Source: an uncultured Actinomycetes bacterium
Lineage (GTDB): Bacteria; Actinomycetota; Acidimicrobiia; Acidimicrobiales; RAAP-2
Reading direction: 5' to 3'
Length of the DNA: 64,000 bases
NCBI GenBank assembly: GCA_903871335.1
Contig: CAIQGE010000026.1
Coordinates: forward strand, 1 to 64,000
Made by a program: the position numbers and the translations under genes
Shown here: positions 11,145 through 54,043 of the stretch, piece after piece
Numbering within the stretch: the first letter of the stretch is position 1
How the letters are laid out: each line of letters opens with the position of its first letter
The notes under the pieces: model-generated
What the model saw: only the letters and a program-made list of their open reading frames with translations
Database searches by the model: none
Told to the model about the DNA's origin: nothing

Positions 11145-12727
11145 GCGTTCTGCCTCGCGTCGAGTCCGCGTCGCCCTCGGGCGTGACGGAACGTCTCAGT
11201 TACTCACGAGCGAGTTTCGTGATGGTCCTCGTCATCATGGCGGTCTTCGGTACGGGCGTGGGCCTGTGGAAGTTCTCGGTCGCGATGGCGACGCCCGCCG
11301 GCGTGGCGACGATCAAGACATCAACCTGGTACGCGCCCTACGTGGACGTGACCCTGCCTCCGACTTACAACTTCCAGGACACCACTCAGGTAGGCGCGAA
11401 CAACGTCGTGCTCGGCTTCGTCGTGGGTGGGGGCAGCAACGGTTGCACGCCTCTGTGGGGTGGGTCGTACAACTTCCAGCAGGCCGCTTTGAAATTGGAC
11501 CTCGATCGTCGCATCGTGCGTCTTCGCCAGGCGGGGGGAGACGTGGTCGTCTCCTTCGGAGGCGCCGTCAACACGGAACTCGCGTCCTCGTGCACCGACA
11601 CGGTGGCCTTGGCGCAGGCGTACTCGTCGGTGATTGATCACTACGGGGTATCGACCATTGACTTCGACCTCGAGGGCAAGAATCTCACCGACATTCCCGC
11701 GGGGGTTCGTCGCGCGCACGCCCTCGCGGCGATCGAGGGCAGCGAGCGAGCTCGCGGGGAGCAACTGAATGTCTGGGTGACTCTCGGGGTGACCCCCGCC
11801 GGCCTGCCGGCGGATGAAATCACGGCGCTCGACCAACTGCTCACTGCTCGCGTGCAATTGGCTGGCGTCAATCTTCTGACGATGAACTATGGAGCCTCGC
11901 GGCCGTCCAGCCAATCGATGTCGGACGCCTCCATGTCGGCCTTGCGCGCGAGTGCCGGTCAGATCAACCAGCTGTATCAGGCTTACGGCGTGCACTTGTC
12001 AACCAAGGAACTCCACCGCATGCTCGGCATTACGCCCATGATCGGTCAGAACAGCGTGCTGACGGACAAATTCTCCCTGGCTGATGCGACGACCTTCTAT
12101 AACGAGGCGTTGAGCTACGGCGTGGGTCGCCTCTCGATGTGGTCACTCAATCGCGATACACCATGTGGTGGCAACGCGAATCAGTCCATTGCGAGCAACT
12201 GGTGCAGCGGGGTCATTCAAGAACCCCTCGCGTTCTCTCATCTTTTCGCGTCCGACACCGTCTCGTTACCCTCGAGCAAGTTGCCGCGTTCGACGACCTT
12301 GCTCGGGTGGTCGGACACCGCCGTGCTCGGACACGCGCCCTATGACCCGTGGCGTCAGCTACGCGAATACGTGCCCGGCGCTCGAGTTGTCTGGGATGGA
12401 CAGGTGTATCAAGCCAAGTGGTGGAACGTCGGACAAGTCCCCGACGCCGTCGTCGCGCACCCGTGGGATTCGCCCTGGGTCGTACTCGGTCCCGTTCTCC
12501 CCGACGAGGCGACCACCACGACGGTGCCCGTTGGCACGGCGCCACAGTGGGTCTCCTCGACGAATTACAGCTACGGCACGCGCGTTGAGCGACACGGGAT
12601 TATTTACACGGCGCAGTGGCAGAACCAAGGATTCGATCCCGCGTCGGATCCGGACAACACGTGGCAAAATCCGTGGACCCCGCTGTCACCCGCACCGGGG
12701 AGCGATTACGCCGGTGCAAATTTGTGA
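11141..12727 (+). CDS. Secreted GH18-like protein with two chitin-binding-type modules
   Basis: A 528-aa protein. An uncleaved or signal-anchor TM lies at residues 26-46, followed by a TIM-barrel GH18-type domain with IDFDLEG near residue 172, giving the DxDxE catalytic signature in which the Glu is the acid. From about residue 400 there are two CBM5/12-like modules (QVYQAKWWNVGQVP and IIYTAQWQNQGFDP with surrounding Trp), joined by a TTTTVPVG linker. It probably hydrolyses or edits N-acetylglucosamine-containing polymer. It overlaps the stop of the synthase by 4 nt (GTGA). The substrate could equally be a non-chitin glycan. Confidence 0.82.
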   Translation: MSVLPRVESASPSGVTERLSYSRASFVMVLVIMAVFGTGVGLWKFSVAMATPAGVATIKTSTWYAPYVDVTLPPTYNFQDTTQVGANNVVLGFVVGGGSNGCTPLWGGSYNFQQAALKLDLDRRIVRLRQAGGDVVVSFGGAVNTELASSCTDTVALAQAYSSVIDHYGVSTIDFDLEGKNLTDIPAGVRRAHALAAIEGSERARGEQLNVWVTLGVTPAGLPADEITALDQLLTARVQLAGVNLLTMNYGASRPSSQSMSDASMSALRASAGQINQLYQAYGVHLSTKELHRMLGITPMIGQNSVLTDKFSLADATTFYNEALSYGVGRLSMWSLNRDTPCGGNANQSIASNWCSGVIQEPLAFSHLFASDTVSLPSSKLPRSTTLLGWSDTAVLGHAPYDPWRQLREYVPGARVVWDGQVYQAKWWNVGQVPDAVVAHPWDSPWVVLGPVLPDEATTTTVPVGTAPQWVSSTNYSYGTRVERHGIIYTAQWQNQGFDPASDPDNTWQNPWTPLSPAPGSDYAGANL

Positions 12728-12762
12728 TGGTGCAGTTCTTGAACAACGACCACGAGGTCACA

Positions 12763-15276
12763 ATGAAGGAGAAGGCGTTGACGAATCCCCTCAAGAAGCG
12801 GGCGCGTGTCACGCGCACGCTCGGACGGTTCACGGCGGTTGCGCTCGGCGTGGCGGTGCTTACACCCGTCACGGCGAACGTTGCGGGCGCACAGAACCTG
12901 CCCACCCACCCCATGATCATGGTCTCCACCGGTGAACTCACGACCTGTGCCGTCACTGGTGCCGGACACGCGGTGTGTTTCGGACTCGATCACGACGGTG
13001 AACTCGGCGACGGGGGAACCGCGAACTCGAACTACCCCGTTGTCGTCAAGGGCGTTGGTGGCAGCGGTGATCTCTCGAATGTCGTCTCGCTGTCGACGGG
13101 CTTCTTTAGTTCCTGTGCGGTACTGGCTGATACGTCGGTCGTCTGCTGGGGCATGAACGACCACGGACAGCTCGGTGACGGAACGACCAAAGGTTCCTCC
13201 ACGCCCGTACGAGTAAAGGGTGTGGGCGGAACGGGCACGCTCTCCGGTGTGCGCTCGGTGTCCGTTGGCCACCAGTCGGCGTGCGCCCTGTTGACCTCCG
13301 GCGGCGTCGTCTGTTGGGGATACAACGATCACGGCCAGCTCGGCGACGGTTCCCTGCAGAGTTCCTCGGTACCGGTCGCGGTCAATGACACGACGGGCAT
13401 CAATAATCTCTCCGGGGCCAGCCAGATCTCCGTTGGTTTCGACGAAGGTTGCGTGGTCCTGAGTGACGCCAGCGTCCAGTGTTGGGGCATCAACAGTTAC
13501 GGCGAACTCGGAAATCAGACGACCAAGGAATCAGCGTTGCCCGTGGATGTCGCCGGCGTGTCGACCAGCACCTTGAGCAATGTTGTCCAAGTCGCTGTCG
13601 GTTACTTCTCCGTGTGTGCGCTGCTGAGCGACCAGAGTGTCGTGTGCTGGGGCGAGAACGGGTACGGGCAGCTCGGCAACAATTCAACTTCTCCGAGCTC
13701 GCGCCCTGTCGCGGTGGTCGGTGTTGGTGGCTCGGGCACTCTGTCCAACGTGAAGGACATCGCCGCTGAGGGTAAGACGGCGTGTGCGGTGGTCGGCACG
13801 AATGTTGCGTGTTGGGGTAATGGCACCCAGGGTGAACTCGGCAACGGCACGACGTCATCGTCGCTGACCCCCGTACTGGCTTTCGGCGTGACCGGTTCGG
13901 GCACCCTGGCTGGTGCGACCCAGGTGGACACGAGTTTTGGCGGGACCACGTGTGCGTTGCTCGACATCACTCAAGTTCGTTGCTGGGGTGAGAACGGTGT
14001 CGGAGAGATCGGTCGCTCCGGCGCGTCGAACACCACCGTGCCGGCCGCGAGTCGCGGCGTGCTCGGAGTGAGTCTCCTGATTTTGGCGGCCAGTCCGCAG
14101 GCCCCGAACGTCGAGGCGACGCCCGGTGACGAGTCGGCCCAGGTCGACGTGTCGGTGGCCTTCGACGGTGGATCGCCGATCACCTCGTATTCGGTGACGG
14201 CGGTCGACAAGACGAACGCGAGCCGTGGTGGTCAACACGTCACGTCGTCCTCGAGTCCCGCGACGGTGAACGGACTGAACAACGGCGACACCTACGTTTT
14301 TGACGTCACCGCCATCAACGATCTCGGGACGTCTCCCGTCGGCACCAGCAACTCGGTCATTCCGGCGGGCAAGCCCGGTGCGGCCACGTCGGTCACCGCC
14401 TTGCGTCACAACGGAGGACTCGTCGTGCGCTTCGCGGCTGCTCGTCCCAACGGCCGAGCGGTATCGAACTACGAGGTGACCGTGGTCGACCTCGATAACA
14501 ATGCCGTGCCGAACGTGATTGCGGATGGAGCCTCGAGCCCCGTGAACGTGCCCTCGGTGACCCAGGGTGATCGCTTGCAGGTGACCATTGTCGCGACAAA
14601 CTCCGTCGGTGACGGCCCCGCCAGTACTCCCGTTGTCGTTCTGGCGCTCGGACTGCCGGGCGGACCCGACGTCGTGAGCAATGTCTCGGCCATCACCACC
14701 CTCGTGTCGTCGAGTGCCTCGGTGGGCATTTTCGCCATGAATTCTTCGGAACTCTCCAGCACCATGGCGGCGCAGGTTCACTCATGGGCGAAGAGCATCG
14801 CTCACGCGGAGACCAGCTTGACCGTGAGTTGGCAGGCACCCGCCAGCCCCGGACGTTCCGCGGTGACGAGCTATCTCGCAACCGCGTTCCCGAGTGGCAA
14901 GCACTGCGTGAGCACCACGACGTCGTGCGTCATCACGGGGCTGCGATCAACGACTCATTACAACGTCACGGTGATTGCGCGCAGCGCGGTCGGTACCTCG
15001 GTCCCGGTCAGCTCGTCCGTGGTCGCACCGTCCATTGGCATAATCCACCTCGTGGGATACGCCGAAGCCGGCGCCAAGCCGGAGCACTTGCACCAGTTGA
15101 CGCTCGATCGAGCGAAGTCGGTCGAAGCGGCACTCCTCAGTGCACTGCACGCCCTCCACGTCGCCGCGCCGACCATCACTGTCGCCGGTGGCGGTGCTAC
15201 CAACTTCGTGGGCGGTAAGCCGGACACCGATGCGGACCGCCGAGTGGTGGCGACGTTGTCGCTGCCGCGCGCGTAG
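12763..15276 (+). CDS. Surface protein: RCC1 beta-propeller, fibronectin type III, OmpA-like tail
   Basis: An 837-aa protein. The signal peptide runs to about residue 43 (ATANVAGAQ-like). Seven RCC1-type blades follow (residues 50-430), each carrying a Cys pair: a Cys in CAV/CALL about nine residues before a CWG or CFG, then GELG/GQLG. Two to three fibronectin type III domains (about 440-760; GDTYVFDVTAIND, THYNVTVIARSAVG) come next. The last 75 residues (RAKSVEAALL, GGATNF, DADRRVVATL) resemble the OmpA/MotB peptidoglycan-binding domain. I chose ATG 12763 for its signal peptide and the GAGG site; ATG 12727 would prepend 12 residues. It follows the GH18-like gene closely and may be co-transcribed. 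Confidence 0.83.
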   Translation: MKEKALTNPLKKRARVTRTLGRFTAVALGVAVLTPVTANVAGAQNLPTHPMIMVSTGELTTCAVTGAGHAVCFGLDHDGELGDGGTANSNYPVVVKGVGGSGDLSNVVSLSTGFFSSCAVLADTSVVCWGMNDHGQLGDGTTKGSSTPVRVKGVGGTGTLSGVRSVSVGHQSACALLTSGGVVCWGYNDHGQLGDGSLQSSSVPVAVNDTTGINNLSGASQISVGFDEGCVVLSDASVQCWGINSYGELGNQTTKESALPVDVAGVSTSTLSNVVQVAVGYFSVCALLSDQSVVCWGENGYGQLGNNSTSPSSRPVAVVGVGGSGTLSNVKDIAAEGKTACAVVGTNVACWGNGTQGELGNGTTSSSLTPVLAFGVTGSGTLAGATQVDTSFGGTTCALLDITQVRCWGENGVGEIGRSGASNTTVPAASRGVLGVSLLILAASPQAPNVEATPGDESAQVDVSVAFDGGSPITSYSVTAVDKTNASRGGQHVTSSSSPATVNGLNNGDTYVFDVTAINDLGTSPVGTSNSVIPAGKPGAATSVTALRHNGGLVVRFAAARPNGRAVSNYEVTVVDLDNNAVPNVIADGASSPVNVPSVTQGDRLQVTIVATNSVGDGPASTPVVVLALGLPGGPDVVSNVSAITTLVSSSASVGIFAMNSSELSSTMAAQVHSWAKSIAHAETSLTVSWQAPASPGRSAVTSYLATAFPSGKHCVSTTTSCVITGLRSTTHYNVTVIARSAVGTSVPVSSSVVAPSIGIIHLVGYAEAGAKPEHLHQLTLDRAKSVEAALLSALHALHVAAPTITVAGGGATNFVGGKPDTDADRRVVATLSLPRA

Positions 15277-18347: not shown

Positions 18348-18450
18348 CACGTCACCATAGATTCCGTCGCCCGCGTGGTGGATGACTGTGCCTCACGCGA
18401 CCCGTGGCTCGGTGCTCGGGCGCGGTCGGAACGCGGTAGGTTGCAGATAC

Positions 18451-18550
18451 GCCACGATTTCTCGTGGCCGTGAGACGCCAGGTTCGGGTCGGACGATCTA
18501 GACGATTGTCGCCCGTTCGGGCAGGACGCCTCCTTTTTCAAAGGAATTGC
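18451..18550 (+). promoter_or_regulatory. Structured leader RNA, copy 1 of 3 (unknown class)
   Basis: In order: hairpin GCCACGA-TTTC-TCGTGGC (18451-18468); conserved core from GAGACGCCAGG at 18472, including hairpin GACGATC-TAGAC-GATTGTC (18493-18510 region) and the tetraloop hairpin GCCC-GTTC-GGGC (18511-18522); second GACGCC; then TCCTTT (18531-18536) pairing with AAAGGA (18540-18545), which is the ribosome-binding site of ATG 18551. Copies 2 and 3 have the same core to within a few bases, but their 5' hairpins differ in sequence. The arrangement predicts translational control of the Cys/His-rich protein. No known riboswitch family is recognised. Confidence 0.75.
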
Positions 18551-18844
18551 ATGTCCCACTGTTGTCACAACGACGCTCACGCGACGCCCGAGCTTTCGGC
18601 CGGTGCCTGTTGTTCGACCCTCCCGCGACGTCCGGTCGCCTCGTGTTGTTCGACGCCCGAACACCACGGTGCGGGTCCTTCCTGCAGCCATCACGAGGGT
18701 CATCACGACCACCACGACGTTCAACCGCACCACCCTGAACCGGGAGTCAGCGCTCCGCCACTACGGATTCTGGACGAGCGGCTCGCGCGCGGTGAGATGA
18801 CGATCGAGGACTACACCGCCCGCAAGGCCATCCTCGCTCCATAA
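18551..18844 (+). CDS. Cys/His-rich small protein with C-terminal SHOCT domain
   Basis: A 97-aa protein. The N-terminal 60 residues hold three Cys pairs (SHCCHND, GACCSTL, ASCCSTP), a further Cys and runs of His (SHHEGHHDHHD), suggesting binding of several metal ions. Residues about 72-97 (LRILDERLARGEMTIEDYTA) match a SHOCT module, a short C-terminal oligomerisation domain. I chose ATG 18551 because it is preceded by AAGGA that lies in the leader RNA hairpin; the upstream in-frame extension reads through that RNA and is not conserved as protein in the other copies. A metal storage/trafficking role is possible but inferred. Confidence 0.75.
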   Translation: MSHCCHNDAHATPELSAGACCSTLPRRPVASCCSTPEHHGAGPSCSHHEGHHDHHDVQPHHPEPGVSAPPLRILDERLARGEMTIEDYTARKAILAP

Positions 18845-18946: not shown

Positions 18947-19636
18947 ATGAACATTCTTATGGTGATGACCTCACACGACGAACTCGGTACCACCGGTCGC
19001 AAGACCGGTGTGTGGCTCGACGAATTCGCCCAGCCCTATTACGACATGATCGACGGAGGCGCCACCGTGACCCTCGCATCCCCGTACGGGGGTCGCCCGC
19101 CGATCGACCCGGCGAGCGAGGTCCCGAGCGCTCTCACGAACGCCACCGCTCGCTTCGCCGGCGACACCGTGGCCCAAGGCGCCTTCCATCACACCGAGCC
19201 CCTCATGGACATGCACGCCAATCACTTCGGCGCGGTGTTCTACTGCGGAGGGCACGGACCACTGTGGGACTTGGTTGACAACGTGTTCTCCTTGTCACTA
19301 CTCCAAGCCTTCGCGGCCAGTGAGAAGCCCATCGCGGCGGTGTGCCACGGACCAATGGTGCTGAAGAACGTGCGCCTCTCCACCGGGGCCATCTTCTTGA
19401 CCGGTCGCCACGTGACGGGATTCTCGAATTCGGAAGAAGAAGCCGTGGGGCTTGCTGACATCGTTCCGGAATCCCTCGAGAACGCGATGATCGCACGTGG
19501 GGCCACCTATTCCAAAGGCGCCATTGATTTTCAGCCCTACGTCGTCGTTGACGGCACGCTCATCACGGGTCAGAACCCGGCGTCGTCGGGACCGGTCGCC
19601 ATGACGCTGCTCGAGATGATGGCCGTGCGTCACTAA
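18947..19636 (+). CDS. DJ-1/PfpI family protein (Hsp31/glyoxalase III-like)
   Basis: A 229-aa protein with the DJ-1 catalytic set: a Glu in TGVWLDEF (E26), GGHGPLWDL at 101-109 and the nucleophilic Cys in AVCHGP (C133, followed by His). TGVWLDEF and GGHGxxWDL are characteristic of the Hsp31-like clade, whose members act as holdase chaperones or glutathione-independent glyoxalases removing methylglyoxal. The ATG at 18947 follows an AGAGAAC site. It lies about 100 bp after the SHOCT protein and 58 bp before the DksA-like gene, so the three may form a stress operon under the leader RNA. Confidence 0.87.
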   Translation: MNILMVMTSHDELGTTGRKTGVWLDEFAQPYYDMIDGGATVTLASPYGGRPPIDPASEVPSALTNATARFAGDTVAQGAFHHTEPLMDMHANHFGAVFYCGGHGPLWDLVDNVFSLSLLQAFAASEKPIAAVCHGPMVLKNVRLSTGAIFLTGRHVTGFSNSEEEAVGLADIVPESLENAMIARGATYSKGAIDFQPYVVVDGTLITGQNPASSGPVAMTLLEMMAVRH

Positions 19637-19693: not shown

Positions 19694-20065
19694 ATGAATG
19701 AAACCATTGCCCGCACTCGCGTGTCCGATGAGATCGTGTCGTTGCGACGCTTGATTGCAGAGACCCAAGAGGACAGCGTGGACCGCCACCGCTTCGAAGA
19801 AGAACAGGGCGACGCGACCGACCGCGCGGAACCTCTCACCTCCGAGCAAGGCACGGACGCAATTCTCGAGAGCCTGCACCAACGACTGCACGCATTGGAA
19901 CGCGCCGAACGGCGCCTCAATGACGGAACCTACGGTCGCTCCTTGCGCAGCGGGACTGTCATCAGCGACGAACGCCTGGAGGCGGATCCCGCGGCCGAGC
20001 TCACCGTCGCCGAGGCCCAGGATGATCAGCCCAACGCCGCCAATGAGCGCGCCGACGAAATTTAG
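19694..20065 (+). CDS. DksA/TraR-like protein lacking all zinc-finger cysteines
   Basis: A 123-aa protein. A helical N-terminal half precedes a DksA-type signature: LNDGTYGRSLRSGTVISDER followed by LEADPAAELTVAEAQ. In the DksA/TraR family the corresponding positions are GTYGxCxxCGxxIxxxRLxAxPxxxxCxxC; here they are S, S, T and E, and the protein has no Cys at all. It may keep the RNA-polymerase secondary-channel fold without zinc or have another function. The ATG at 19694 has AGGAGAA upstream. Its stop overlaps the stop of the convergent P-type ATPase. Confidence 0.8.
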   Translation: MNETIARTRVSDEIVSLRRLIAETQEDSVDRHRFEEEQGDATDRAEPLTSEQGTDAILESLHQRLHALERAERRLNDGTYGRSLRSGTVISDERLEADPAAELTVAEAQDDQPNAANERADEI

Positions 20066-22731
20066 GTCCCGGCGTTCGCTACCGGTACCGTCGCGCCGGT
20101 AGCGAGGCGCGCCTTCGTGCGTGCCACGCGCCGGGCGTGCACGGCCTTGTGCACTGCGTCGCAGGCCAACATGATCGGGAGTCCGGCGACGGCGAGAGCC
20201 CAGCCGAACAGCGGCGGCGCCGCCTGTCCGAGCACGCGGGCCGCCGGCGCAATGAATTCCAGGCAACCCAACAAGATGAGTGCGACGGCGACACCGGCGA
20301 GCAGAGTGCGGTTGGTGAACCAGCCGAGTGCGCCCGGCCACTGCGTGGCGCTGCGGCAGGCGAAGGCCACGCCGATCTGACAGAACACGACCGTCGCGAA
20401 CGCCGCCCCGGACGCTTCAGCCACGACGTGACCGGTCGGAAACGAAGAGCCGACGTGCCAGCCCGCGTGGACGAGCACGAGCAAAAAGACGAGGACTTCG
20501 AGGGCGGATTCGAGTGGACCGAGGACGACGAAGGCACGAAACAGAACTCGTGTATCGATGAGGTGCCGCCCGAACAGGGGAGTATCGACATTCCCTTTCC
20601 CCCGTCGCTCGACCCCGAGGGCCAATGCGGGAACCACGTCGACGCCGAGATCGAAGCACAAAATCTGCAGGACGCCCAGCACGAGGGGGAAGCGACCTCC
20701 ACTGAGGGCCCACAGGACAAACGGGGCGAGCTCGGCCATATTGCACACGAGGTGGTACGTGAGAAATCGCCGCATATTCGCGAACGTCACGCGTCCGAGG
20801 GTCACGGCGGCCACGATGGTGCCGAAGTCGTCGTCGAGGAGCACCAGGTCCGCGGCCGCTCGTGCGACGTCCGTTCCCGACTTGCCCATCGCGACGCCGA
20901 TGTCGGCGGCGTGGAGGGCCGGACCATCATTGACGCCGTCACCCGTCATGGCCACGACGTGGTGGCGCTGTTGCAGCGCGTGGGCGATACGTAACTTGTC
21001 CTCGGGCGTGACCCGGCTCAACACCACACCGTCAGGCTGATCGACGAGTTGTCCGAGAGCCGTGAGGTCTTGTGGCAGGTCCGCTCCGGCAATGGCGTCC
21101 ACCTCGCCGCGGGTGAGTCCCACTTCGCGCGCGATGGCGCTGGCGGTGCGAGCATTGTCGCCCGTCAACATGGCAACACGAATGCCGGCTCGACGACACG
21201 CCGCGAGCGCCTCCTTCACGCCCACGCGCGGCGGGTCCTCGATGGCCACGAGTCCGAGAAGAACGAGGCCGGTTTCGACACTCTCCGCGGTGAGGCTACC
21301 GGTGTGGATTGTTCCCTCCGCGATCGCAATCACGCGTAGTCCGCGCCCGGTCATCTCCGACACGGCGTCCTCGGCACCCGGTGCAGCCCCGCACCGGGGC
21401 ACTACGCTCTCCGGCGCCCCCTTGGTATAGGAGTGACCGCCGGCAACGACCGTCATCATGCGGCGGTGGGCGTCAAAGGCAAACGTGTGCGTGCGGTTCC
21501 CGTCGGCCACGAGCGCGTCGACGTCAATGTCCAACCGGTGCGCGAGCGTGGCGATCGCGGCCTCGAGAGATTCGCCCTCGGGCACCCACACACCGTCTCG
21601 CAACACCGTGAGATCATCCGAGCACAGCACGCCCGCCGTCGCGAGAACTTTGGCGGCCGCCGTCGCCTCACTCGTGCCGTCGACCCGTCCCGTGGGGTCG
21701 TATCCGTCGCCGTGAACGAGGAGCGTTCCCCGCGGAGTCCAGACCTCGCGCACGGACATTTGGTTCGACGTGAGTGTGCCGGTCTTGTCGGTGCAGATGA
21801 ACGTCGTGGAGCCCAGGGTCTCAACGGATTCCAAGTGGCGCACGAGGGCGTGACGATGGACCATTTCTTGGGCCGCGGCGGCGAGGGAGAGCGTGACCGT
21901 GGGGAGGAGTCCTTCGGGTACCAGGGCGACGGTCACGCCCACGGCGAACAGGAAACCGTGTCGCGCACTTCCCCCGAGGAGCACCGACAACACAAAGAAG
22001 CTGGTCCCAATGCCGACGGCGAGGAGTGCGATGGTGCGTACGATGCGAGTGAGTTCGTGCTGCAACGGACTCACCGGACGCTTGCCCTCCTGGGTGAGGA
22101 CGGCGAGCGAGGCGAGCTTGGTGCCGACTCCCGTGGCAACGACGACCGCCGTCGCCTCACCCTTGGTGACGTAGCAACCAGCGAACAAAGTGTCGCCGAT
22201 CGACGATTCCTCCGGCACACTCTCGCCACTGAGTAACGAGGTGTCAACAGTGAGCGACTCGCTGGTCACGACCGTCATGTCGGCCGACACGCGATCGCCG
22301 GCGTGCAACAGCACGAGGTCGCCGACCACGAGTTCGGTGGCGGGAATGTCCACGTTGGCCCCGTCTCGTTGGACGGTGGTGTGTTCCGGGAGGAGTTCGT
22401 TCAATTTCTCCGCGGCGTGCTCGGCCCGAAATTCCTGGACGAAGGCGAAGGTGCCGTTGACGACAATGACGACGAAGATCGCAACGCCGAGTTGCGGCAT
22501 CCCCGCCACAATCGAGAGGGCTCCCGCCACCCACAACATCAGCGCGAAGAAGTGGAAGAGTTGCGCCGCGAACTGTCGCCACATGGGAGTTTGCCGCACG
22601 CTCGGCATGCGGTTGGGTCCGTCGCGACGGAGAATGTCGGCGGCCGCGAGAGCGGTCAATCCGTGGACGTCGTCACGTGGGCGACGGGGCTTCGGAGGTG
22701 TCCCCGCGGCCGTGGGTGATGGGTCAGTCAC
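20062..22731 (-). CDS. P-type cation-transporting ATPase (P2/Ca2+-Na+ type)
   Basis: An 889-aa P-type ATPase. An N-terminal cation_ATPase_N region precedes the actuator loop with TSLLSGESVPEE. The TM4 motif VALVPEGLLP (PEGL, typical of P2 ATPases), the phosphorylation site DKTGTLTS near residue 313, the hinge TGDGVNDGPAL and at least eight hydrophobic segments follow. No CPx or N-terminal heavy-metal domain is present, so Ca2+, Na+/K+ or H+ is likelier than Cu/Zn. I chose GTG 22731 because it overlaps the arcC stop by 8 nt; the longer frame runs through arcC. It is the last gene of the arginine-deiminase operon, an unusual partner. Confidence 0.88.
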   Translation of the reverse strand: MTDPSPTAAGTPPKPRRPRDDVHGLTALAAADILRRDGPNRMPSVRQTPMWRQFAAQLFHFFALMLWVAGALSIVAGMPQLGVAIFVVIVVNGTFAFVQEFRAEHAAEKLNELLPEHTTVQRDGANVDIPATELVVGDLVLLHAGDRVSADMTVVTSESLTVDTSLLSGESVPEESSIGDTLFAGCYVTKGEATAVVVATGVGTKLASLAVLTQEGKRPVSPLQHELTRIVRTIALLAVGIGTSFFVLSVLLGGSARHGFLFAVGVTVALVPEGLLPTVTLSLAAAAQEMVHRHALVRHLESVETLGSTTFICTDKTGTLTSNQMSVREVWTPRGTLLVHGDGYDPTGRVDGTSEATAAAKVLATAGVLCSDDLTVLRDGVWVPEGESLEAAIATLAHRLDIDVDALVADGNRTHTFAFDAHRRMMTVVAGGHSYTKGAPESVVPRCGAAPGAEDAVSEMTGRGLRVIAIAEGTIHTGSLTAESVETGLVLLGLVAIEDPPRVGVKEALAACRRAGIRVAMLTGDNARTASAIAREVGLTRGEVDAIAGADLPQDLTALGQLVDQPDGVVLSRVTPEDKLRIAHALQQRHHVVAMTGDGVNDGPALHAADIGVAMGKSGTDVARAAADLVLLDDDFGTIVAAVTLGRVTFANMRRFLTYHLVCNMAELAPFVLWALSGGRFPLVLGVLQILCFDLGVDVVPALALGVERRGKGNVDTPLFGRHLIDTRVLFRAFVVLGPLESALEVLVFLLVLVHAGWHVGSSFPTGHVVAEASGAAFATVVFCQIGVAFACRSATQWPGALGWFTNRTLLAGVAVALILLGCLEFIAPAARVLGQAAPPLFGWALAVAGLPIMLACDAVHKAVHARRVARTKARLATGATVPVANAGT

Positions 22732-23662
22732 GCGAAGGGCCCTCTCGTCGATGATCCTCAGGCCCCACCCACGTGCCCGTGACGCCCGCGAGAAGGTCGC
22801 CCGCGTCGGCGAGACGACCAATGAGGGTCGGGCGCCCTGTTCGTTCGCTAAAGCTGCACGCGGCTGACACCTTGGGGCCCATGGATCCATCCGGAAAGCT
22901 CATGGTGCGCAGTTGCGCCGGCGTGGCGTACGAAATCGGTCGTTCGGCGGGGGTGCCGAAGTCGTGCATGACGGCGGCGACGTCCGTGAGAAGTACGAGC
23001 GCGTCGACGTGGAGGAGTTCGGCGAGTAGAGCGGCCGCGAGGTCCTTGTCAATGACGCCCTCGACGCCACTCAACACGCCACGATCGTCCCGCGTCACCG
23101 GAATCCCGCCACCACCGCTGCACACGACGAGGGCTCGCGACGCGAGCAAGAGTTGAATGAGGGGCAACTGCGGGAATGAGCGTGGCGCGGGAGACGGCAC
23201 CACGCGACGCCACGACGAGCCGTCGGGTGACATCGTCCATCCGAACGTGAGAGTCAGTCTCTGTGCGTCCACCTGGCTGTAGATCGGGCCGATGAACTTG
23301 GTCGGATGAGCAAAGGCCGGATCGCGAGGGTCGACGACGGTTTGGGAGAGCACGGTCGCCACCACGCGCTCCGGCAGTGCGTTGTTGAGCGCTTGGAGCA
23401 AGAGATACCCAATCATTCCTTGCGATTCGGCCCCCAGAATGTCGAGGGGATAGGGGGTCGGGAGATCCCGGTCGCGCGCCGATTCCGTGGCGAGAAGTCC
23501 GACCTGCGGTCCATTGCCGTGCGTGAGAACCACGTCGTGTTCGTGGAGCAGGGGCGCGAGATGTTCAATGGCGACGGCCACGTGCGCGCGTTGGCGCGCC
23601 GCGGTAGCGGGCTCGCCACGCTCCAGGAGTGCGTTGCCGCCGATCGCTACGAGGAGACGCAC
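22724..23662 (-). CDS. arcC: Carbamate kinase
   Basis: A 312-aa carbamate kinase: N-terminal [16 protein letters not shown] (GGNA motif, residues 8-11), HGNGPQVG near residue 50, CSGGGGIPV near 180, EGVIDKDLAA with a catalytic Lys, and GSMGPKV near 270. It transfers phosphate from carbamoyl phosphate to ADP, giving ATP, CO2 and NH3, the energy-yielding last step of the arginine deiminase pathway. It overlaps the upstream transcarbamylase gene by 16 nt. All catalytic residues look intact, unlike the homologue at 46137. Confidence 0.93.
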   Translation of the reverse strand: MRLLVAIGGNALLERGEPATAARQRAHVAVAIEHLAPLLHEHDVVLTHGNGPQVGLLATESARDRDLPTPYPLDILGAESQGMIGYLLLQALNNALPERVVATVLSQTVVDPRDPAFAHPTKFIGPIYSQVDAQRLTLTFGWTMSPDGSSWRRVVPSPAPRSFPQLPLIQLLLASRALVVCSGGGGIPVTRDDRGVLSGVEGVIDKDLAAALLAELLHVDALVLLTDVAAVMHDFGTPAERPISYATPAQLRTMSFPDGSMGPKVSAACSFSERTGRPTLIGRLADAGDLLAGVTGTWVGPEDHRREGPSRD

Positions 23663-24684
23663 GGGTTCGTCACCGTCGCCACCATCAGAGCCTTGATGGT
23701 ATGGAGTCGGTTCTCGGCTTGGTCGAAGACGAGCGAGGCGGGAGATTCAAAAACGTCGTCGGTGATCTCGAGTGCCGTCACGCCGTACGCGGCGTGCATC
23801 TGGCGGCCGAGTTCGGTCGCGACGTCGTGGAGAGCCGGCAGACAGTGCATGACCTTGACCGCGGGATTGTTGGTCGCGACCACGAGGGCCTTGTTGATCT
23901 GGTAGGGGATCATCTGCGTGATGCGCTCCTGCCACTTGTCCGTCGTCTCACCCATCGAGACCCACACGTCGGTGTAGAGAATGTCCGCGCCGCGAACGAG
24001 ACCAGTGTCGTCACTCACGCTTACCGAACCCCCCGAGAGAGCCGCGAGTCGGTGAGCGCGATGTCGCACCGACTCCTCCGGCGCTCGCGACGCGGGGCCG
24101 ATGAGACGTACGTCCATGCCGAGTAGAGCCCCGGTCACGAGAAGTGATTGCGCGGTGTTGTTCTGGGTGTCGCCAAGGAAACACACGGTCAGTTCGGACA
24201 CTTTCTTGTCGACGTGATCCTTCATCGTGAGCACGTCAGCCAGCATTTGGGTGGGGTGCCACGAATCGCTCAAACCGTTCCATACGGGCACGCCCGCGTA
24301 CTGCGCCAACGTCGCGACCACGTCGTGGCGGAAGCCGCGATGCTCGATGCCGTCGAACATGCGTCCGAGCACTCGAGCGGCGTCCTTCGCTGATTCCCCG
24401 AAACCGAGGTGGGAGTCACCGGGACCGAAATAGGTCACGTGCGCTCCCTGGTCGTGCGCTCCGACTTCGAAGGCCGAACGTGTGCGAGTGGAGACCTTTT
24501 CGAAGATGAGCGCGATGTTGCGACCACTGAGGAGCTGGACTTCGCGGTTCTCGCGCTTGGCGGCGCGAAGGTCCTTGGCCAAATGAACCAGGAAGAGAAA
24601 CTCCGCCTTGGTCAAGTCGTCGGGCGCCAGCAGACTTCGTCCACGAAGTTGCCGCATCATCTCGGGATCGGGGAGCAGTTTCAT
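23647..24684 (-). CDS. arcB: Ornithine carbamoyltransferase (catabolic type by context)
   Basis: A 345-aa transcarbamylase. The carbamoyl-phosphate loop [10 protein letters not shown] is at residues 61-70, [10 protein letters not shown] and the ornithine-binding loop follow, and the HCLPALHD motif is near 285. The enzyme interconverts citrulline plus phosphate with ornithine plus carbamoyl phosphate. It lies between arcA and arcC and overlaps arcA by 4 nt, so a catabolic role is likely; sequence alone cannot exclude a biosynthetic argF role. The length matches OTC enzymes (330-345 aa). Confidence 0.92.
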
Positions 24685-47071: not shown

Positions 47072-47257
47072 GGCACTCCTCGAGGGAATTCACGTCGCCG
47101 GGGTCTGGGGCAACAATATTGATCGGACACGTACGTGCCGAGGGGGGTGGTTTGCCCCTGTGCTCGCACTGTAGTCCCACCACGGCGCGCCGCACTCCTT
47201 GACGAAGGGGATGAAGTCCTGTTTGCTCGGGGCCCTACGACCGTTACGATGCGTGAA

Positions 47258-47361
47258 GGAGGGAATTGCTCCCTCCGCTTGAGACGCCAGGTTCGGGTCG
47301 GACGATCTAGACGATTGTCGCCCGTGCGGGCTCGACGCCTCCCGTGTCCTGGAGGGTCCCT
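47258..47361 (+). promoter_or_regulatory. Structured leader RNA, copy 2 of 3
   Basis: Hairpin GGAGGGA-ATTGC-TCCCTCC (47258-47276), 4 nt, the conserved core from GAGACGCCAG at 47281 with GACGATC/GATTGTC stem and the GCCC-GTGC-GGGC hairpin, a second GACGCC, then CCTCC (47338-47342) pairing with the GGAGG at 47351-47355. That GGAGG is the ribosome-binding site of ATG 47362. Only the tetraloop third base, a short linker and the 3' tail differ from copies 1 and 3. It would control the 61-aa peptide and the glycan operon behind it. Confidence 0.75.
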
Positions 47362-47547
47362 ATGTTTCCGTCTCGTTCGTCGTCGCCAATGATCACCGCC
47401 TCACCCACGTCCGCTCCCGCATCGTGGCGACGCTCACTACAGCGAACGCCGTCGGCCCTGTGGTCCGCGGTCATTGCGATGACGACCATCGCCATCGTGC
47501 TCGATTCGCGCTTCGTGGCGCGCACGGTGTCTCGACGTGGCGCATGA
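47362..47547 (+). CDS. Small membrane peptide at the head of the glycan operon
   Basis: A 61-aa protein: Ser/Pro-rich start, basic segment (SWRRSLQRTPS), then one TM-like helix (ALWSAVIAMTTIAIVLD) and a basic tail. The start is fixed by the RNA-covered GGAGG. Its TGA overlaps the ATG of the glycosyltransferase (ATGA at 47544), so its translation probably drives the following gene. No homologue recognised; it may be a regulatory leader peptide. Confidence 0.65.
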   Translation: MFPSRSSSPMITASPTSAPASWRRSLQRTPSALWSAVIAMTTIAIVLDSRFVARTVSRRGA

Positions 47548-48689
47548 ACGCGTCCCCCTACGTCGTGATCGTGAGCAGCGCACCCCCGACCCCGTGTGGT
47601 CTCGCCACGTTCACCGCGGCCCTGCGACGAGCTCTCGTGCGACAAGGCGCGCGCGTGGGCATCGTTCGCGTCCAAAGTGTCAGTGATTCCCCGGTCGACC
47701 CAAGCGACGACATCGACGTCATTGGAACCTTCACCGAAGCCTCCGCGCCCACCATTGAGCGTTTGCGGGTCCTCCTCGATCAAGCGGACCTCGTTCTCGT
47801 GCAGCACGAATACGGCCTCTACGGTGGTCGCGACGGTGATGAAATTCTCGAATTGCTGCGTGTCGTTCGCGCGCCGGTGATTGCGATCTTGCACACCATC
47901 CTGCCGCGACCGACGGCCCACCAGGCGACGATCCTCAACGAGGTCATGCAGTGTGCGGACCGGGTGGTCGTGATGACCCAGGCCGCTCGTGCCACGATCG
48001 CCGAAATCTTCGACGCCGGCACGACGCCGGTTGACGTCATTCCTCACGGCGGCCAGGTTGTCCCGCGCCGGCCGCTTATGCGCCGCTCGGTGCGTCCGAT
48101 GTTGTTGACCTGGGGGCTCCTCGGACCCGGGAAGGGGATTGAGTGGGTGATTGACGCACTCGCGGACCTTCGTGATCTGCAGCCGACGCCGCTCTACGTG
48201 GTGGCCGGACGTACGCACCCCAAAGTCCTGGAACACGAAGGCGAGGCCTACCGTCGCAGTCTCGAACGACGCGTCGTGCAACGAGGCGTTGGTGAGATGG
48301 TCGTCTTCGACGACACCTATCGCTCCCTATCGTCGCTGCACGACTTGATTGACCAAGCTGACGTGGTGGTGCTGCCCTACGACTCCACGGATCAGGCGAC
48401 GTCCGGTGTGCTCGTTGACGCCGTGGCCGCGGGGAAGCCCGTGGTCGCGACGGCCTTCCCGCACGCCGTGGAACTACTGATTCCCGACGCCGGCGTGGTC
48501 GTGCGTCACCGCAGTCCGCGCGCACTCAGCGACGCTCTGCGCCGCACACTGGAAGAGCCGGGACTGCTCGAGGCGTTAGGAGATGGCGCTCGACGTCGGG
48601 CTCCCGCCCTGAGTTGGGACAGTGTGGCTGCGGCGTACCTCGCCCTGGCGAGTGACGTTACCTGTGAGCAGAACGCGGTGGTCGCGTGA
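47544..48689 (+). CDS. Glycosyltransferase, GT4-type (GT-B fold)
   Basis: A 381-aa enzyme. The N-terminal Rossmann part has VSSAPPTPCGLATFT and QHEYGLYGGRDGD; the C-terminal part has LLGPGKGIEWVIDAL and PYDSTDQATSGVLVDAVAAG (the E/Gx7 type region, here Asp). It transfers sugar from a nucleotide donor, retaining configuration. With the following toroid and GH130 proteins it forms a glycan-building or recycling unit. Substrate unknown. It overlaps the next gene by 4 nt. Confidence 0.85.
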   Translation: MNASPYVVIVSSAPPTPCGLATFTAALRRALVRQGARVGIVRVQSVSDSPVDPSDDIDVIGTFTEASAPTIERLRVLLDQADLVLVQHEYGLYGGRDGDEILELLRVVRAPVIAILHTILPRPTAHQATILNEVMQCADRVVVMTQAARATIAEIFDAGTTPVDVIPHGGQVVPRRPLMRRSVRPMLLTWGLLGPGKGIEWVIDALADLRDLQPTPLYVVAGRTHPKVLEHEGEAYRRSLERRVVQRGVGEMVVFDDTYRSLSSLHDLIDQADVVVLPYDSTDQATSGVLVDAVAAGKPVVATAFPHAVELLIPDAGVVVRHRSPRALSDALRRTLEEPGLLEALGDGARRRAPALSWDSVAAAYLALASDVTCEQNAVVA

Positions 48690-49699
48690 GCACCGTCCGC
48701 CCCGGCCCGTCGCACTTGATCAACCTGTCGACGGCGCTCGGCACCTTCGAGCACGCGCGATACGCCACGCCCCGAGAAGAACACGGCTACTGCGTTGATG
48801 ACGTCGCCCGCGTCGCGGTGTTTATCGCGCGTGAACCCGAGTCGGAACCGTTATGGGAACTCGCTCGACGTTCCCTGCGTTTTCTCGCCCGTTCACTCAA
48901 TGAGGGCGGTTGGTGTCGGAATCGCTGTAGCGCACAAGGAGTGTGGCACGGTCCCTTCACGAACGACGACTGCTGGGGTCGATTGTTGTGGGCGGCGGGA
49001 ACTACGGTCGCTCGCAGTTCGGACGATGAGAGCGTCGCGTTGGCCCGCGACATTTTCGCCACCGCTGTTGGTGTGCGTTCACCATGGCCCCGCGCCATGG
49101 CTTTCGGTGCCCTCGGGGCCACCGACGTGTTGGCGATCGATCCCAAGAACGCCGGCGCTCGCGCCTTTGTCACGGCCGCCGGTGAATGTTTGGACCGACC
49201 GGTGCAGTCCGTGGAGTGGTTTTGGCCGGAGTCGCGACTCACGTACGCGAACGCGGTGCTACCGGAGGCGTTGTTGGCCGTGGGTGAAGCACTCGGGAAC
49301 GGGGCGCGCAGCGAACGAGCTCTGGCGCAGTTGCGATGGCTTCTGTCGCACGAGATGATCGACGGCATTGTGGTGCCCACGCCGGTGGGCGGGCTCGGAC
49401 CGGACGATCATCACCCCCGCTTCGACCAACAACCCATTGAAGTCGCCGCGCTCGCTGACGCGTGCGCTCGGGCCTACGAGGTCACGCGCGACGACGTCTT
49501 TGCCGATGGACTCACGGCGGCCATTGCCTGGTTTCACGGGGCTAATAGTTTGTCGGTTCCCATGTTTGACGCCGTCACCGGGGGTGGGTACGACGGACTG
49601 ACCGTGAGTGGACCGAATCAGAATCAAGGTGCAGAGTCCACGCTCGCGATGCTGATGACTATGCAATACGCCAGCGTCGTGGTGGGGGTGTCGCGGTGA
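48686..49699 (+). CDS. (alpha/alpha) toroid-type protein linked to glycosyltransferase
   Basis: A 337-aa protein with helical repeats (EEHGYCVDDVARVAV, NRCSAQGVWHGPF, DDCWGRLLWAAGT, RFDQQPIEVAALADACARAY). The pattern matches six-helical-hairpin glycosidase/glycosyltransferase-associated proteins that often sit between a GT4 and a GH130. The catalytic role is unknown. GTG 48686 overlaps the GT stop, and its own stop overlaps the next gene (GTGA). Confidence 0.74.
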   Translation: MSTVRPGPSHLINLSTALGTFEHARYATPREEHGYCVDDVARVAVFIAREPESEPLWELARRSLRFLARSLNEGGWCRNRCSAQGVWHGPFTNDDCWGRLLWAAGTTVARSSDDESVALARDIFATAVGVRSPWPRAMAFGALGATDVLAIDPKNAGARAFVTAAGECLDRPVQSVEWFWPESRLTYANAVLPEALLAVGEALGNGARSERALAQLRWLLSHEMIDGIVVPTPVGGLGPDDHHPRFDQQPIEVAALADACARAYEVTRDDVFADGLTAAIAWFHGANSLSVPMFDAVTGGGYDGLTVSGPNQNQGAESTLAMLMTMQYASVVVGVSR

Positions 49700-51186
49700 A
49701 CGAAGTCCCCGTCGCGCATCGCTCGGCGTACCGCCAGTATCCCGACGTGGGTCGCGTCGTGGCGCGCTTGTTCATACCAGGTCAGGAACTCACCGGCGGA
49801 AGCGAGGCGCGCACCGCCAGCACCGTGGCTCGCGTGCTCGCGTTGGAGCACCCGATCGTGGTGGCGTCCCTCACCGATCTCTACGACCGGTTTCGACATC
49901 GTCACGAGGATATCGAGGGTCTCTTTGATCGTCACGCGCAGCGCGTCATTGATTACGTCGACGGTTCTCCCCTGACCGCAGAGCACCGTCAGTTGTTGGG
50001 TGCGGTCTTCACCCACGAATTCGCCCTCGAGGGAGCGGCGGTGTGCAACCCGAGTCTCGTCGCTCACCCGGATCAAACGGCGCTGCCGTCGGGCACCCTG
50101 CGGGTGGTGATGTCCTACCGAGCCATTGGCGAAGGCCACATCTCGTCGCTGTGTTTTCGAAGTGGCGTCATTGATGAACACGGCAGCTTCACCATCGATG
50201 CGCCCGTGGCGTTTCCCGTCATCGCCACGACGCGCGCGGGTGTCATTGATCGCGAGATCGTGCATTGTTTGCTCCGTGACCGGGGTTGTGACGGACCCAC
50301 GGCCGCCTCGGTTCTCGACCGCCTACCGGAACAATTCACGGGGGACGAATTAGAAGCCGCCCTCGTCCACGGCGCAGAACAGAGCGACACGCGGGTCAAC
50401 GTGGCCGAGACGGCCGCATTGCTACGCACGATTGCCCCTTTGTTCTACCAGGCGGACTTCGCTCCCGACGTCGATCTGTCGCGTCGGGTGTTGTGGCCCG
50501 CGACCATTGCCGAGGCTCGCGGTATGGAGGACGCTCGCTTCGTCCAGATCACGGTCAACGGCAGCCCGCTCTACCGGGCCTCCTATACGGCCTTTGACGG
50601 GGCGGCCGTGAGCCAGCAGGTGCTAACGACGTCTGACTTTGTTCACTTCACCTCCGCTCCGCTCACCGGTCTTGGCGCACAGAACAAGGGAATGGCCTTC
50701 TTTCCCCGACCGGTCGGAGGACGCTTTCGCGCGCTCTCACGGCACGATCGCGAGTCGAACGTGCTCGTAAGTTCGGACTCCGAGCATTGCTGGGACGAAA
50801 CGGCTCTCCTACAGATCCCCGAGAGTGAGTGGGAACTCATCCAGTTGGGAAATTGCGGTTCGCCGCTCGAAGTCCCGGGCGGGTGGCTCGTTCTCACGCA
50901 CGGTGTGGGTCCGATGCGTACCTACAGCCTCGGGGCAATTCTCTTGGATCTCGAGGATCCCTCCCGCGTGCGGGCGTATCTTCCGGGCCCGCTCATGGTC
51001 GCGACGCCGAGAGAACAAGACGGGTACGTGCCGAACGTCCTCTACTCCTGTGGCTCGCTGATTCACGCCGGGATTCTCCACGTCGTTTTCGGTATTGCGG
51101 ATCAATCCATTGGTCACGCGATCGTGAACGTCGACGAATTGCTCGCGGCGTTGGTCGAAACCGATGACGAGTACTCGCACTTCTAG
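49696..51186 (+). CDS. GH130-type glycoside phosphorylase/hydrolase
   Basis: A 496-aa protein with a five-bladed-propeller GH130 pattern: NPSLVAHP, GMEDARFVQI, RASYTAFDG, GNCGSPLEVPGGWL, THGVGPMRTYSLGAIL, YVPNVLYSCG. GH130 enzymes phosphorolyse or hydrolyse beta-mannosides. The Asp of the GxEDARF motif is the usual catalytic residue. It is likely to act on the product of the adjacent GT4. The N-terminal 100 residues are extra to the catalytic domain. Confidence 0.85.
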   Translation: MNEVPVAHRSAYRQYPDVGRVVARLFIPGQELTGGSEARTASTVARVLALEHPIVVASLTDLYDRFRHRHEDIEGLFDRHAQRVIDYVDGSPLTAEHRQLLGAVFTHEFALEGAAVCNPSLVAHPDQTALPSGTLRVVMSYRAIGEGHISSLCFRSGVIDEHGSFTIDAPVAFPVIATTRAGVIDREIVHCLLRDRGCDGPTAASVLDRLPEQFTGDELEAALVHGAEQSDTRVNVAETAALLRTIAPLFYQADFAPDVDLSRRVLWPATIAEARGMEDARFVQITVNGSPLYRASYTAFDGAAVSQQVLTTSDFVHFTSAPLTGLGAQNKGMAFFPRPVGGRFRALSRHDRESNVLVSSDSEHCWDETALLQIPESEWELIQLGNCGSPLEVPGGWLVLTHGVGPMRTYSLGAILLDLEDPSRVRAYLPGPLMVATPREQDGYVPNVLYSCGSLIHAGILHVVFGIADQSIGHAIVNVDELLAALVETDDEYSHF

Positions 51187-51345: not shown

Positions 51346-52032
51346 GTGTTGTCTTTTACCAAGAGCCCACTCGTGATGTTGGTCTCGCCCATTGGCCAAA
51401 GTGAGCCGTGGGAACTAACACCCTTTGGCGGCAAAGTGCGCTGCACGCCGTCGCTGCGACGAGAACCCGAAGCCCGGTTCGACGATGATCGCCCCGTTCT
51501 TTTGCTGAGCGACTGGGGCTATCTCGACGGCATTCCCGTGAGCGGTGCGATCGATGCCGTTCAACCCGCCCTGGCCTCACGCGAGACACGCGGTCCACCG
51601 CGATCGGATGTGGTGTTGCTGCTGCCCATGTCGGTCATGCCCCTGTTGGCCACACTGCGCGCTCGGGCAACTTCCGGGGATGCCGGTGGCGATGATCCCT
51701 TACGTTACGAGGACTGGTGCGCCGTGTGGCCGCACTACGTCGGTACCGATGGCGGCGCGATGTCGTTTCTGCAGAGTGCCAATTCGCGACACGCGTGCGG
51801 TGGGAGTTTTCTACCGGTCGCCGGTTCACGTCGCTACGTCTACGGCAGTTTGCCCGGCGACGTCAGTCCGCTGCCGCTCGTGTACCCGTCGCCCCCGTTC
51901 GTCGACGCCGCACTGCGAGTACCAGAGGCCGTTCGACTCGACAACATCACGGTCGCGGGACGACAGTTGGGTGATGGTGCGCGAGACGAGTCCTGGCCGC
52001 CGGTGTGGCTACCAACGGTGTTCGCCGACTAG
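51346..52032 (+). CDS. Hypothetical protein of unknown family
   Basis: A 228-aa protein. AAAGGAG precedes GTG 51346 by 6 nt, so expression looks real. Parts are Pro/Arg-rich (SRETRGPPRSD), with a short LLLPMSVMPLLATL and several aromatic loops. No motif is recognised. Upstream is a short hairpin GCACCA-TGG-TGGTGC (51265-51279). It may belong to the downstream end of the glycan operon but starts 160 bp later. Confidence 0.68.
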   Translation: MLSFTKSPLVMLVSPIGQSEPWELTPFGGKVRCTPSLRREPEARFDDDRPVLLLSDWGYLDGIPVSGAIDAVQPALASRETRGPPRSDVVLLLPMSVMPLLATLRARATSGDAGGDDPLRYEDWCAVWPHYVGTDGGAMSFLQSANSRHACGGSFLPVAGSRRYVYGSLPGDVSPLPLVYPSPPFVDAALRVPEAVRLDNITVAGRQLGDGARDESWPPVWLPTVFAD

Positions 52033-53594: not shown

Positions 53595-53772
53595 GTACGG
53601 ACGTCCGGACGGGTTCGCTGGCGATCGAAGAATGGTTGAGCACGAGAGGTCTCCATTGCATCTGGGGACGCTCAACGAGGACTTGGTTCAGCGTGGTACG
53701 ACGAAGGTCAGCCTAGTGATCTTTGAGAAAACAACGCGGATGGAAACGGGGGCGAGTGGGTATGTTGGAGAG

Positions 53773-53872
53773 GTGAGGAAATTCCCCTCACGTTGAGACG
53801 CCAGGTTCGGGTCGGACGATCTAGACGATTGTCGCCCGTACGGGCTCGACGCCTCCTTTTTGTGGAGGTTTC
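53773..53872 (+). promoter_or_regulatory. Structured leader RNA, copy 3 of 3
   Basis: Hairpin GTGAGG-AAATTCC-CCTCAC (53773-53791), the conserved core from GAGACGCC at 53795, with GACGATC/GATTGTC stem and GCCC-GTAC-GGGC hairpin, then CCTCC (53852-53856) pairing with GGAGG (53864-53868), the ribosome-binding site of ATG 53873. It is the third copy of the same element, lying downstream of two divergent GAF-ANTAR genes. Confidence 0.75.
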
Positions 53873-54043
53873 ATGTACCCGTTTCTCTCTCTGCCGGCGT
53901 CGACGTCCATGACGCCCACACAATTAGACGTCATCCCCGGGGACGTAGTGAACCCGAGTGATGCGGACGGAGCCCTCGCACTCACGGAGGATTTCAGTAG
54001 TGACGTCGTCGTGACGGACACCCCCGATGTACCTGCGTCATGA
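53873..54043 (+). CDS. 56-aa protein under leader RNA copy 3
   Basis: MYPFLSLPASTSMTPTQLDV followed by an acidic tail (DADGALALTEDFSSD). No family recognised; start fixed by the RNA-covered GGAGG. It may be a small protein or simply a leader ORF. Confidence 0.5.
   Translation: MYPFLSLPASTSMTPTQLDVIPGDVVNPSDADGALALTEDFSSDVVVTDTPDVPAS

Follow-up and report, generated by a model that had tools for sequence, protein, structure and literature searches.

Translational riboswitches are built around a compact aptamer core, the 3' strand of their P1 stem can hide the ribosome site, and one family may stand before several genes. The riboswitches for cyclic dinucleotides, GEMM for c-di-GMP and ydaO for c-di-AMP, are examples of one RNA class that serves a wide and mixed regulon. 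ANTAR target RNAs are defined by a motif of two hexaloops with A1 and G4 in two papers (PMC8934654, PMC8164766); the latter describes actinobacterial targets as often overlapping the ribosome site, and the former includes some mycobacterial ANTAR-linked stem-loops that depart from the classical motif.

The leader RNA described here resembles translational (Shine-Dalgarno-sequestering) riboswitches in its compact conserved core, in a predicted alternative pairing between P1 and the ribosome site, and in standing before several genes. However, it differs from the known ones in that its targets are functionally mixed and no Rfam class matches it. With the cyclic-dinucleotide riboswitches it has in common the wide, mixed set of genes behind one RNA; it is unlike them in matching no Rfam family and in the ligand-making genes of its carriers, discussed below. 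Like the actinobacterial ANTAR targets in PMC8164766, it lies at the ribosome site with ANTAR genes nearby, whereas it has no dual A1/G4 hexaloops beyond chance and is instead a single long hairpin closed by a stem. The main text of that paper does not contain the string Acidimicrobi.

Three copies of a conserved core in one genome

The window (the whole stretch of DNA analysed, 64,000 nt) contains three copies of a 62-nt core, all on the plus strand (Table 1). The original prediction had placed the same core at these three sites, and its coordinates held; the copies share their first 44 nt without a single difference. When the copies are compared they vary only where it had said, namely at the third base of the GTNC tetraloop (T, G and A), in the 2-base linker after GGGC (AG, TC and TC) and in the 3' tail. 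With up to 3 mismatches allowed, a 22-nt piece of the core matched 3 times in the window and never in 100 dinucleotide shuffles, and a 44-mer of the core matched exactly 3 times in the 2.23-Mb genome. The element proposed for copy 1 spans 18451-18550, from the 5' hairpin through the base preceding the ATG at 18551. Each core was also said to be preceded by a hairpin of unrelated sequence (P0) and to end in a hairpin over the ribosome-binding site; both are present at all three copies and fold when computed.

Table 1. Features of the three leader copies and of the genes around them (window coordinates).
Feature	Coordinates	Strand	Evidence or remark
-10-like box TAGGTT, copy 1	18437..18442	+	TAnnnT pattern
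5' hairpin P0, copy 1, GCCACGA/TCGTGGC	18451..18468	+	folding; stability vs shuffles
Leader RNA core, copy 1	18472..18533	+	sequence match, covariation
P1, copy 1	18472-18477 with 18527-18532	+	
P2 lower, copy 1	18485-18489 with 18511-18515	+	
P2 upper, copy 1	18492-18498 with 18504-18510	+	
Anti-Shine-Dalgarno hairpin TCCTTT/AAAGGA, copy 1, overlaps P1 3' strand	18531..18545	+	folding
97-aa Cys/His-rich SHOCT-domain protein, target of copy 1	18551..18844	+	Pfam PF09851 7.4e-7
DJ-1/PfpI protein, next gene after copy 1	18947..19636	+	Pfam PF01965 2.3e-10
-10-like box TACGAT, copy 2	47245..47250	+	TAnnnT pattern
5' hairpin P0, copy 2	47258..47276	+	folding
Leader RNA core, copy 2	47281..47342	+	sequence match
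Anti-Shine-Dalgarno hairpin CCTCCC/GGAGGG, copy 2	47338..47356	+	folding
61-aa small ORF behind copy 2, hydrophobic stretch, ATGA overlap with next gene	47362..47547	+	
GT4-type glycosyltransferase	47544..48689	+	Pfam PF00534 1.5e-17 (query from earlier in-frame start 47424)
337-aa protein, conserved in GT4/GH130 operon	48686..49699	+	without Pfam or NCBIfam match
GH130-family protein	49696..51186	+	Pfam PF04041 1.1e-21
GAF-ANTAR protein, divergent from copy 3	52029-52787	-	PF03861 2.3e-17; possible trans-acting partner
274-aa protein, degenerate ANTAR domain, adjacent	52851-53675	-	PF03861 0.0093, below cut-off; home-made profile 3.2e-16
-10-like box TATGTT, copy 3	53761..53766	+	TAnnnT pattern
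5' hairpin P0, copy 3	53773..53791	+	folding
Leader RNA core, copy 3	53795..53856	+	sequence match
Anti-Shine-Dalgarno hairpin CCTCC/GGAGG, copy 3	53852..53868	+	folding
56-aa small ORF behind copy 3	53873..54043	+	
65-aa ORF, after 56-aa ORF of copy 3	54115-54312	+	

Distribution and novelty

On the evidence of sequence comparison, the leader is a real cis-acting RNA family of the Acidimicrobiales that had previously gone uncatalogued. Searched by BLAST, 14 of 61 genomes of relatives gave a match, all from the same genus and with this genome counted; one of them (G015) was later judged false, and L017, likewise judged false, was dropped before the counts. Covariance models were then built from 21 copies (R1), 61 rows (R2) and 96 rows (R3). 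R1 gave 61 matches in 44 of the 99 genomes of the genus. R3 found the leader strongly in 45 of them, or 48 when three weak matches are included. Throughout an order-wide sample, R2 at E up to 0.01 detected the leader in 38/397 genomes and 27/204 genera, and R3 at E up to 0.001 in 39/397 genomes and again 27/204 genera, some of them weakly. The four weakest order matches (L160, L161, L163 and L164) are unlike the family and were dropped. Outside the order, weak matches occurred in 8 of 396 genomes of the phylum (E 5.7e-4 to 0.009), where chance would give about four. A scan of viral contigs with one 21-mer returned no match.

A pattern scan of named records yielded 46 loci: 24 titled Acidimicrobi-, 5 Ilumatobacter-, 1 Desertimonas flava SYSU D60003, 12 with other actinobacterial names and 4 with something else. 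These last four are two Acidobacteria SM_70_13, Mycobacterium sp. bog_759 and one Planctomycetota, and are possibly mislabelled bins; the record titled Planctomycetota (L185) fits the pattern and fails the covariance model. Taken together, these titles point to the Acidimicrobiales as the order concerned. In D. flava the leader copy (L210) precedes the operon of GT4, 337-aa protein and GH130 genes that also follows copy 2. Since this named strain carries a copy, the question of the ligand is accessible at the bench.

The counts below refer to 60 copies of the genus and to a second set of 65 copies that the order search and named records supplied, mostly from other families (L158 is from the same genus). 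Of the 46 pattern loci, 28 were carried forward and the others were judged copies of genomes already included; among the 41 matches of that further search, L179 (a copy of L108) and the marginal L168 and L170-L174 were also left out. Nine loci that are malformed, marginal or outside the order (L111, L160, L161, L163, L164, L166, L167, L169 and L190) are excluded from the counts of positions, folding, hexaloops and genes, and L077, at a contig end, is absent from counts that depend on upstream sequence, which therefore run to 59 instead of 60. One sample comprised 100 sources, with some near-duplicates left out.

The original prediction recognised no published class in the leader, and Rfam agrees: with Rfam 15 at gathering thresholds, only tRNAs were found in the window, in 7 loci of the genus (3 from this genome) and in 15 loci mostly from other families. 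When the cut-off was relaxed to E 10, the leader of copy 1 alone had no match, and that of L196 had two chance matches, far below threshold, to eukaryotic RNA families. With nothing beyond tRNAs and chance matches, a known Rfam class was ruled out as the identity of the leader. The prediction had also named two findings that would count against it, a match to a known Rfam family and homologues without compensatory changes; no such match appeared, and homologues elsewhere do show compensatory changes. Among the matches listed for open-licence papers on RNAs of Acidimicrobi or Ilumatobacter and on riboswitch candidates, no title or abstract describes the leader, and the main text of two structured-RNA surveys (PMC11109978, PMC6429828) contains neither Acidimicrob nor Ilumatobacter.

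Conservation and structure of the core

The core appears to be under purifying selection. Compared with genome G006, copy 1 is identical at 62/62 positions and copy 2 at 97%, with 54-67% identity in the 60 nt on either side of the cores and about 65-75% in four genes of the two operons, except for one 56-nt stretch at 82%.

The core is modelled as a long hairpin, P2 (upper part GACGAUC/GAUUGUC), within a short closing stem, P1 (GAG.CG/CG.CUC). The upper part of P2, a hairpin already present in the original prediction, is firmly supported as a conserved helix. In tree-aware simulations with 109 distinct rows, two of its pairs outscore every other pair of columns (E 0.013 and 0.093), its summed score exceeds that of 150/150 simulations, and 92% of cells pair; the same two pairs are best with 90 rows (E 0.05 and 0.083). 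Support for P1, which the original prediction had missed, is moderate. Its summed score exceeds 147/150 tree-aware simulations and 98% of cells pair, with no single pair significant alone; among 57 distinct genus rows, A-U has replaced G-C at the first pair in 13, with G-U as an intermediate in 6. The lower part of P2 pairs in 96% of cells and is not significant alone (27/150 simulations reach its score), and a stem of GCC 8-10 with GGC 51-53 is uninformative because it hardly varies (96% of cells pair; 77/150 simulations).

Shuffle tests of P1 and P2 together point the same way. Among 57 distinct genus rows, 43 cells had changed on both sides against 10.8 expected (0/500 shuffles). This test and another gave 0/500 on three of five measures, the remaining measures giving 7 and 68 in one test and 6 and 2 in the other, and a further test, on an alignment with one junk row, gave 0/500 on all five. 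These controls are less strict than the tree-aware ones, as they ignore relatedness and the alignments are partly fitted to the model. The junk row (L111, wrong strand) is included in alignment A6, model R3 and that one shuffle test; both L111 rows were removed for the 90-row covariation.

The GCCC-GUNC-GGGC hairpin (P3) of the original prediction can be drawn, but as a conserved helix it finds no support. In the genus, 95% of its cells pair over 20 distinct rows, but 128/500 shuffles equal that; across 109 distinct rows 82.5% pair, and 53/150 tree-aware simulations reach its covariation score. In a single case, L091, three positions have changed and P2 lower and P3 both still pair. As far as the sequence tells, then, what stood of the original prediction is a leader RNA acting on translation and belonging to no published class; what fell was the GCCC/GGGC hairpin.

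Two further candidates were discarded. A conserved leader peptide is incompatible with a one-base deletion that breaks the shared frame in L079, L080, L082, L083 and L087, and with loops that differ by several bases. An extension of P1 (CUUGG before and CYGAG after the core) fits 29/65 second-set copies by a loose pattern, and is not claimed because a copy's own pairing was no stronger than permuted pairing (3093/5000).

Three near-identical copies within 35 kb, with none elsewhere in the genome, might also suggest a repeated DNA element, either a mobile repeat or an operator, in place of an RNA. We already disfavour this reading and hold it to be the least probable of all those considered: in another species (L058) copies 1 and 2 precede the same kinds of genes with diverged flanks, the copies sit between a -10-like box and a start codon in the direction of the gene, and in L100 and L105 the upper part of P2 has been replaced by a quite different, unrelated sequence that still pairs. 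That the conserved strand serves as the pairing target of a trans-acting small RNA is also very improbable. Several genes per genome do share one conserved sequence, and a conserved 17-mer with up to 3 mismatches has 15 near matches on the minus strand of the genome, compared to 4 for a reversed control. However, the best of these has 2 mismatches, the 44-mer has no minus-strand match, and in P2 it is the pairing, not the sequence, that has been conserved. The excess is also there on the plus strand (19 vs. 6, three being the leaders), so base composition may explain the near matches.

Position in the transcript and proposed switch

Most copies lie before a coding region, with exceptions. A TAnnnT box, usually followed by G, stands 20-50 nt upstream of the core in 56/59 genus copies and 40/65 second-set copies, whereas by our estimate chance would place one in that range in about one copy in five. 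In the genus, the stretch of 26 nt upstream of the core folds with a mean of -7.4 kcal/mol, compared to -3.5 kcal/mol when shuffled (z < -1 in 45/59), and the sequence of this P0 hairpin varies between copies. The second set shows no such trend (z < -1 in 14/65 for the 20 nt before the core), and its box lies nearer the core. Downstream of the core, at about 15-35 nt, there is usually a start codon with a Shine-Dalgarno sequence; it is some 53 nt away in L106-L108, L151 and L158, and in some copies there is none within range.

The transcript would start just before or at the leader and, in this genus, open with the variable and probably protective P0 hairpin, followed by the conserved core. 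The unpaired bases of the core are among its most conserved and cluster in the strands around P1; the binding pocket would be made of those between P1 and P2. The CUCC opposite the Shine-Dalgarno sequence shares bases with the 3' strand of P1 (CGCCUC), so that P1 and the Shine-Dalgarno hairpin would be mutually exclusive: the last bases of this strand (CUC or CUCC) could pair alternatively with the Shine-Dalgarno sequence, which follows within a few bases. By prediction the unbound RNA keeps the ribosome site hidden (OFF), and binding of a partner would close P1 and free the site (ON). We consider it probable that the leader family controls the translation start of stress-type genes in this way, ON when bound and OFF when alone; the transcript start, the direction of the switch, the partner and any effect on expression are what we infer.

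Folding was computed for 53/60 genus and 59/65 second-set copies, leaving aside those without a recognisable Shine-Dalgarno sequence, with too little sequence or with unread bases. Forcing P1, rather than leaving its 5' strand unpaired, had a median cost of 6.2 kcal/mol in the genus and 4.2 kcal/mol in the second set. The Shine-Dalgarno sequence paired with the P1 3' strand at a probability above 0.5 in 42/53 and 31/59 copies, respectively, and P1 itself exceeded 0.5 in 0/112. Since P1 is costly and stays below 0.5 in all 112 copies, the RNA alone is predicted to be OFF, and P1, if real, needs a partner. A bound partner could explain the low probability of P1 in these models, and the absence of P1 could do so too.

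In the second set, each copy's Shine-Dalgarno sequence and its own opposing strand gave stronger pairing than all 5000 permutations. For the genus, own pairing was no better than permuted (946/5000), as CUCC complements any good Shine-Dalgarno sequence; the permutations ignore relatedness. In several copies both strands have changed together (CCTTC with GAAGG in L071 and L072, CGCC with GGCG in L096, CGCCG with CGGCG in L134). P1 and the exclusive pairing are supported, but more weakly than P2.

Genes behind the leader

Up to four open reading frames starting within 2.6 kb downstream were counted for the 60 genus and 65 second-set copies; each BLAST cluster of genes was named from one or a few of its members. 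Parts of the GT4, 337-aa and GH130 operon follow 27/60 genus and 22/65 second-set copies. The other recurrent targets, given in the same order, are zinc alcohol dehydrogenase (8/60 and 1/65), DJ-1 (7/60 and 0/65), DoxX (5/60 and 0/65), ice-binding protein (4/60 and 1/65, with PF11999 for one representative), a 40-aa basic protein (3/60 and 5/65), an ABC ATPase (2/60 and 4/65), ANTAR-domain genes (1/60 and 2/65) and HlyIII (0/60 and 5/65). By these annotations the targets are a stress-type mixture of many unrelated functions, not one pathway, and they do not point to a single metabolite. If the proposed switch is right, an order of mostly uncultured actinobacteria would coordinate a stress regulon through one uncatalogued RNA switch, and the regulon would point at the signal sensed and at the uncharacterised GT4/337-aa/GH130 operon.

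The 337-aa protein is the usual partner of the GT4 and GH130 genes behind the leader and is likely an unnamed carbohydrate enzyme; it has no Pfam match at 0.001 and no NCBIfam match at 0.01. It is present in 57/99 genus genomes, which by hand count are 35/45 of those strongly positive for the leader and 22/54 of the others. Because this marker also occurs in genomes without a strong leader match, the operon can do without the leader.

An RNA thermometer or cold-stress leader, in which temperature alone would decide how far the Shine-Dalgarno hairpin gives way to open forms, is improbable. The ice-binding-like targets would fit it, as would several carrier records titled palsa, fen, bog or by a lake. 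However, the majority of targets are not cold genes, and a thermometer does not need the conserved unpaired bases that are among the most conserved of the core.

Candidate partners

A small molecule or ion is somewhat more likely than a protein to be the partner, given the clustering of conserved bases in the unpaired strands around P1. We tentatively propose a new riboswitch class restricted to the Acidimicrobiales. It would sense a general stress signal directly, either a metabolite or an ion and probably neither c-di-AMP nor c-di-GMP, and would switch on the translation of an entire stress regulon: the GT4/GH130 glycan operon together with the genes for zinc alcohol dehydrogenase, DJ-1, GAF-ANTAR, ice-binding and membrane proteins. 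Diadenylate cyclase was found in 0/99 genus genomes by a search whose control found it in 11/14 named genomes. A GGDEF domain is absent from 9/45 leader-positive genus genomes, this one included; these are drafts, 7/9 of them at least 90% complete. Therefore, neither c-di-AMP nor c-di-GMP is a likely ligand within the genus, and a riboswitch for either was rejected there, as diadenylate cyclase is absent from the carriers and GGDEF from some of them.

A leader bound by a protein is rather unlikely in comparison; its best candidate regulator would be the GAF-ANTAR protein pair encoded beside many copies, with the ANTAR protein closing P1, or holding the OFF form, when GAF senses stress. Using a home-made profile, an ANTAR-domain gene was found in the fetched stretch, usually about 4.5 kb on each side, for 17/61 genus copies and 5/39 order-search rows (two of these rows being one locus), whereas about 1% is expected by our arithmetic from some two ANTAR genes per 2.2-Mb genome. 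In L137 the leader directly precedes an ANTAR-domain gene, and behind the leaders of L063 and L141 the first clear genes are of this kind, after a small or uncertain open reading frame, as self-regulation would give. By hand count, at least two ANTAR matches occur in 31/45 strongly leader-positive and 18/54 other genus genomes. However, 14/45 leader-positive genomes have only one ANTAR match, ANTAR genes occur in 97/99 genus genomes whether or not the leader is present, the 17 neighbours include several with a common gene arrangement and so are not independent cases, and the genes could merely belong to the same stress island.

The canonical ANTAR target was rejected, as dual A1/G4 hexaloops occur only at chance level (4/59 genus and 2/65 other leaders, compared to 3.9 and 2.4 when shuffled); the three window copies lack even a single A1/G4 hexaloop hairpin. 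The non-classical mycobacterial stem-loops of PMC8934654 leave room for a protein partner, and if that partner is the GAF-ANTAR protein, the leader would be an ANTAR target unlike the dual-hexaloop kind.

Neighbouring genes and clustered copies

The pair of GAF-ANTAR and 274-aa proteins seen next to copy 3 recurs beside many leader copies. In L106 (4240), L107, L108 and L158 the conserved 40-aa basic protein stands behind the leader, apparently with a separate hairpin over its ribosome site. Three leader copies lie within about 2.5 kb in L130 (7421-9452) and in L196 (1546-4053; titled Ilumatobacter sp.), and in both, two of the three are back to back and divergent. Beside the operon of copy 1, a row of genes on the minus strand (20062-24684), which we take to encode a P-type cation ATPase and carbamate-kinase-like and ornithine-carbamoyltransferase-like proteins, looks like an energy-stress or hypoxia island. 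On the plus strand, 12616-15276 presumably encodes a long protein, apparently secreted, that combines repeated RCC1-like blades with fibronectin-like parts.
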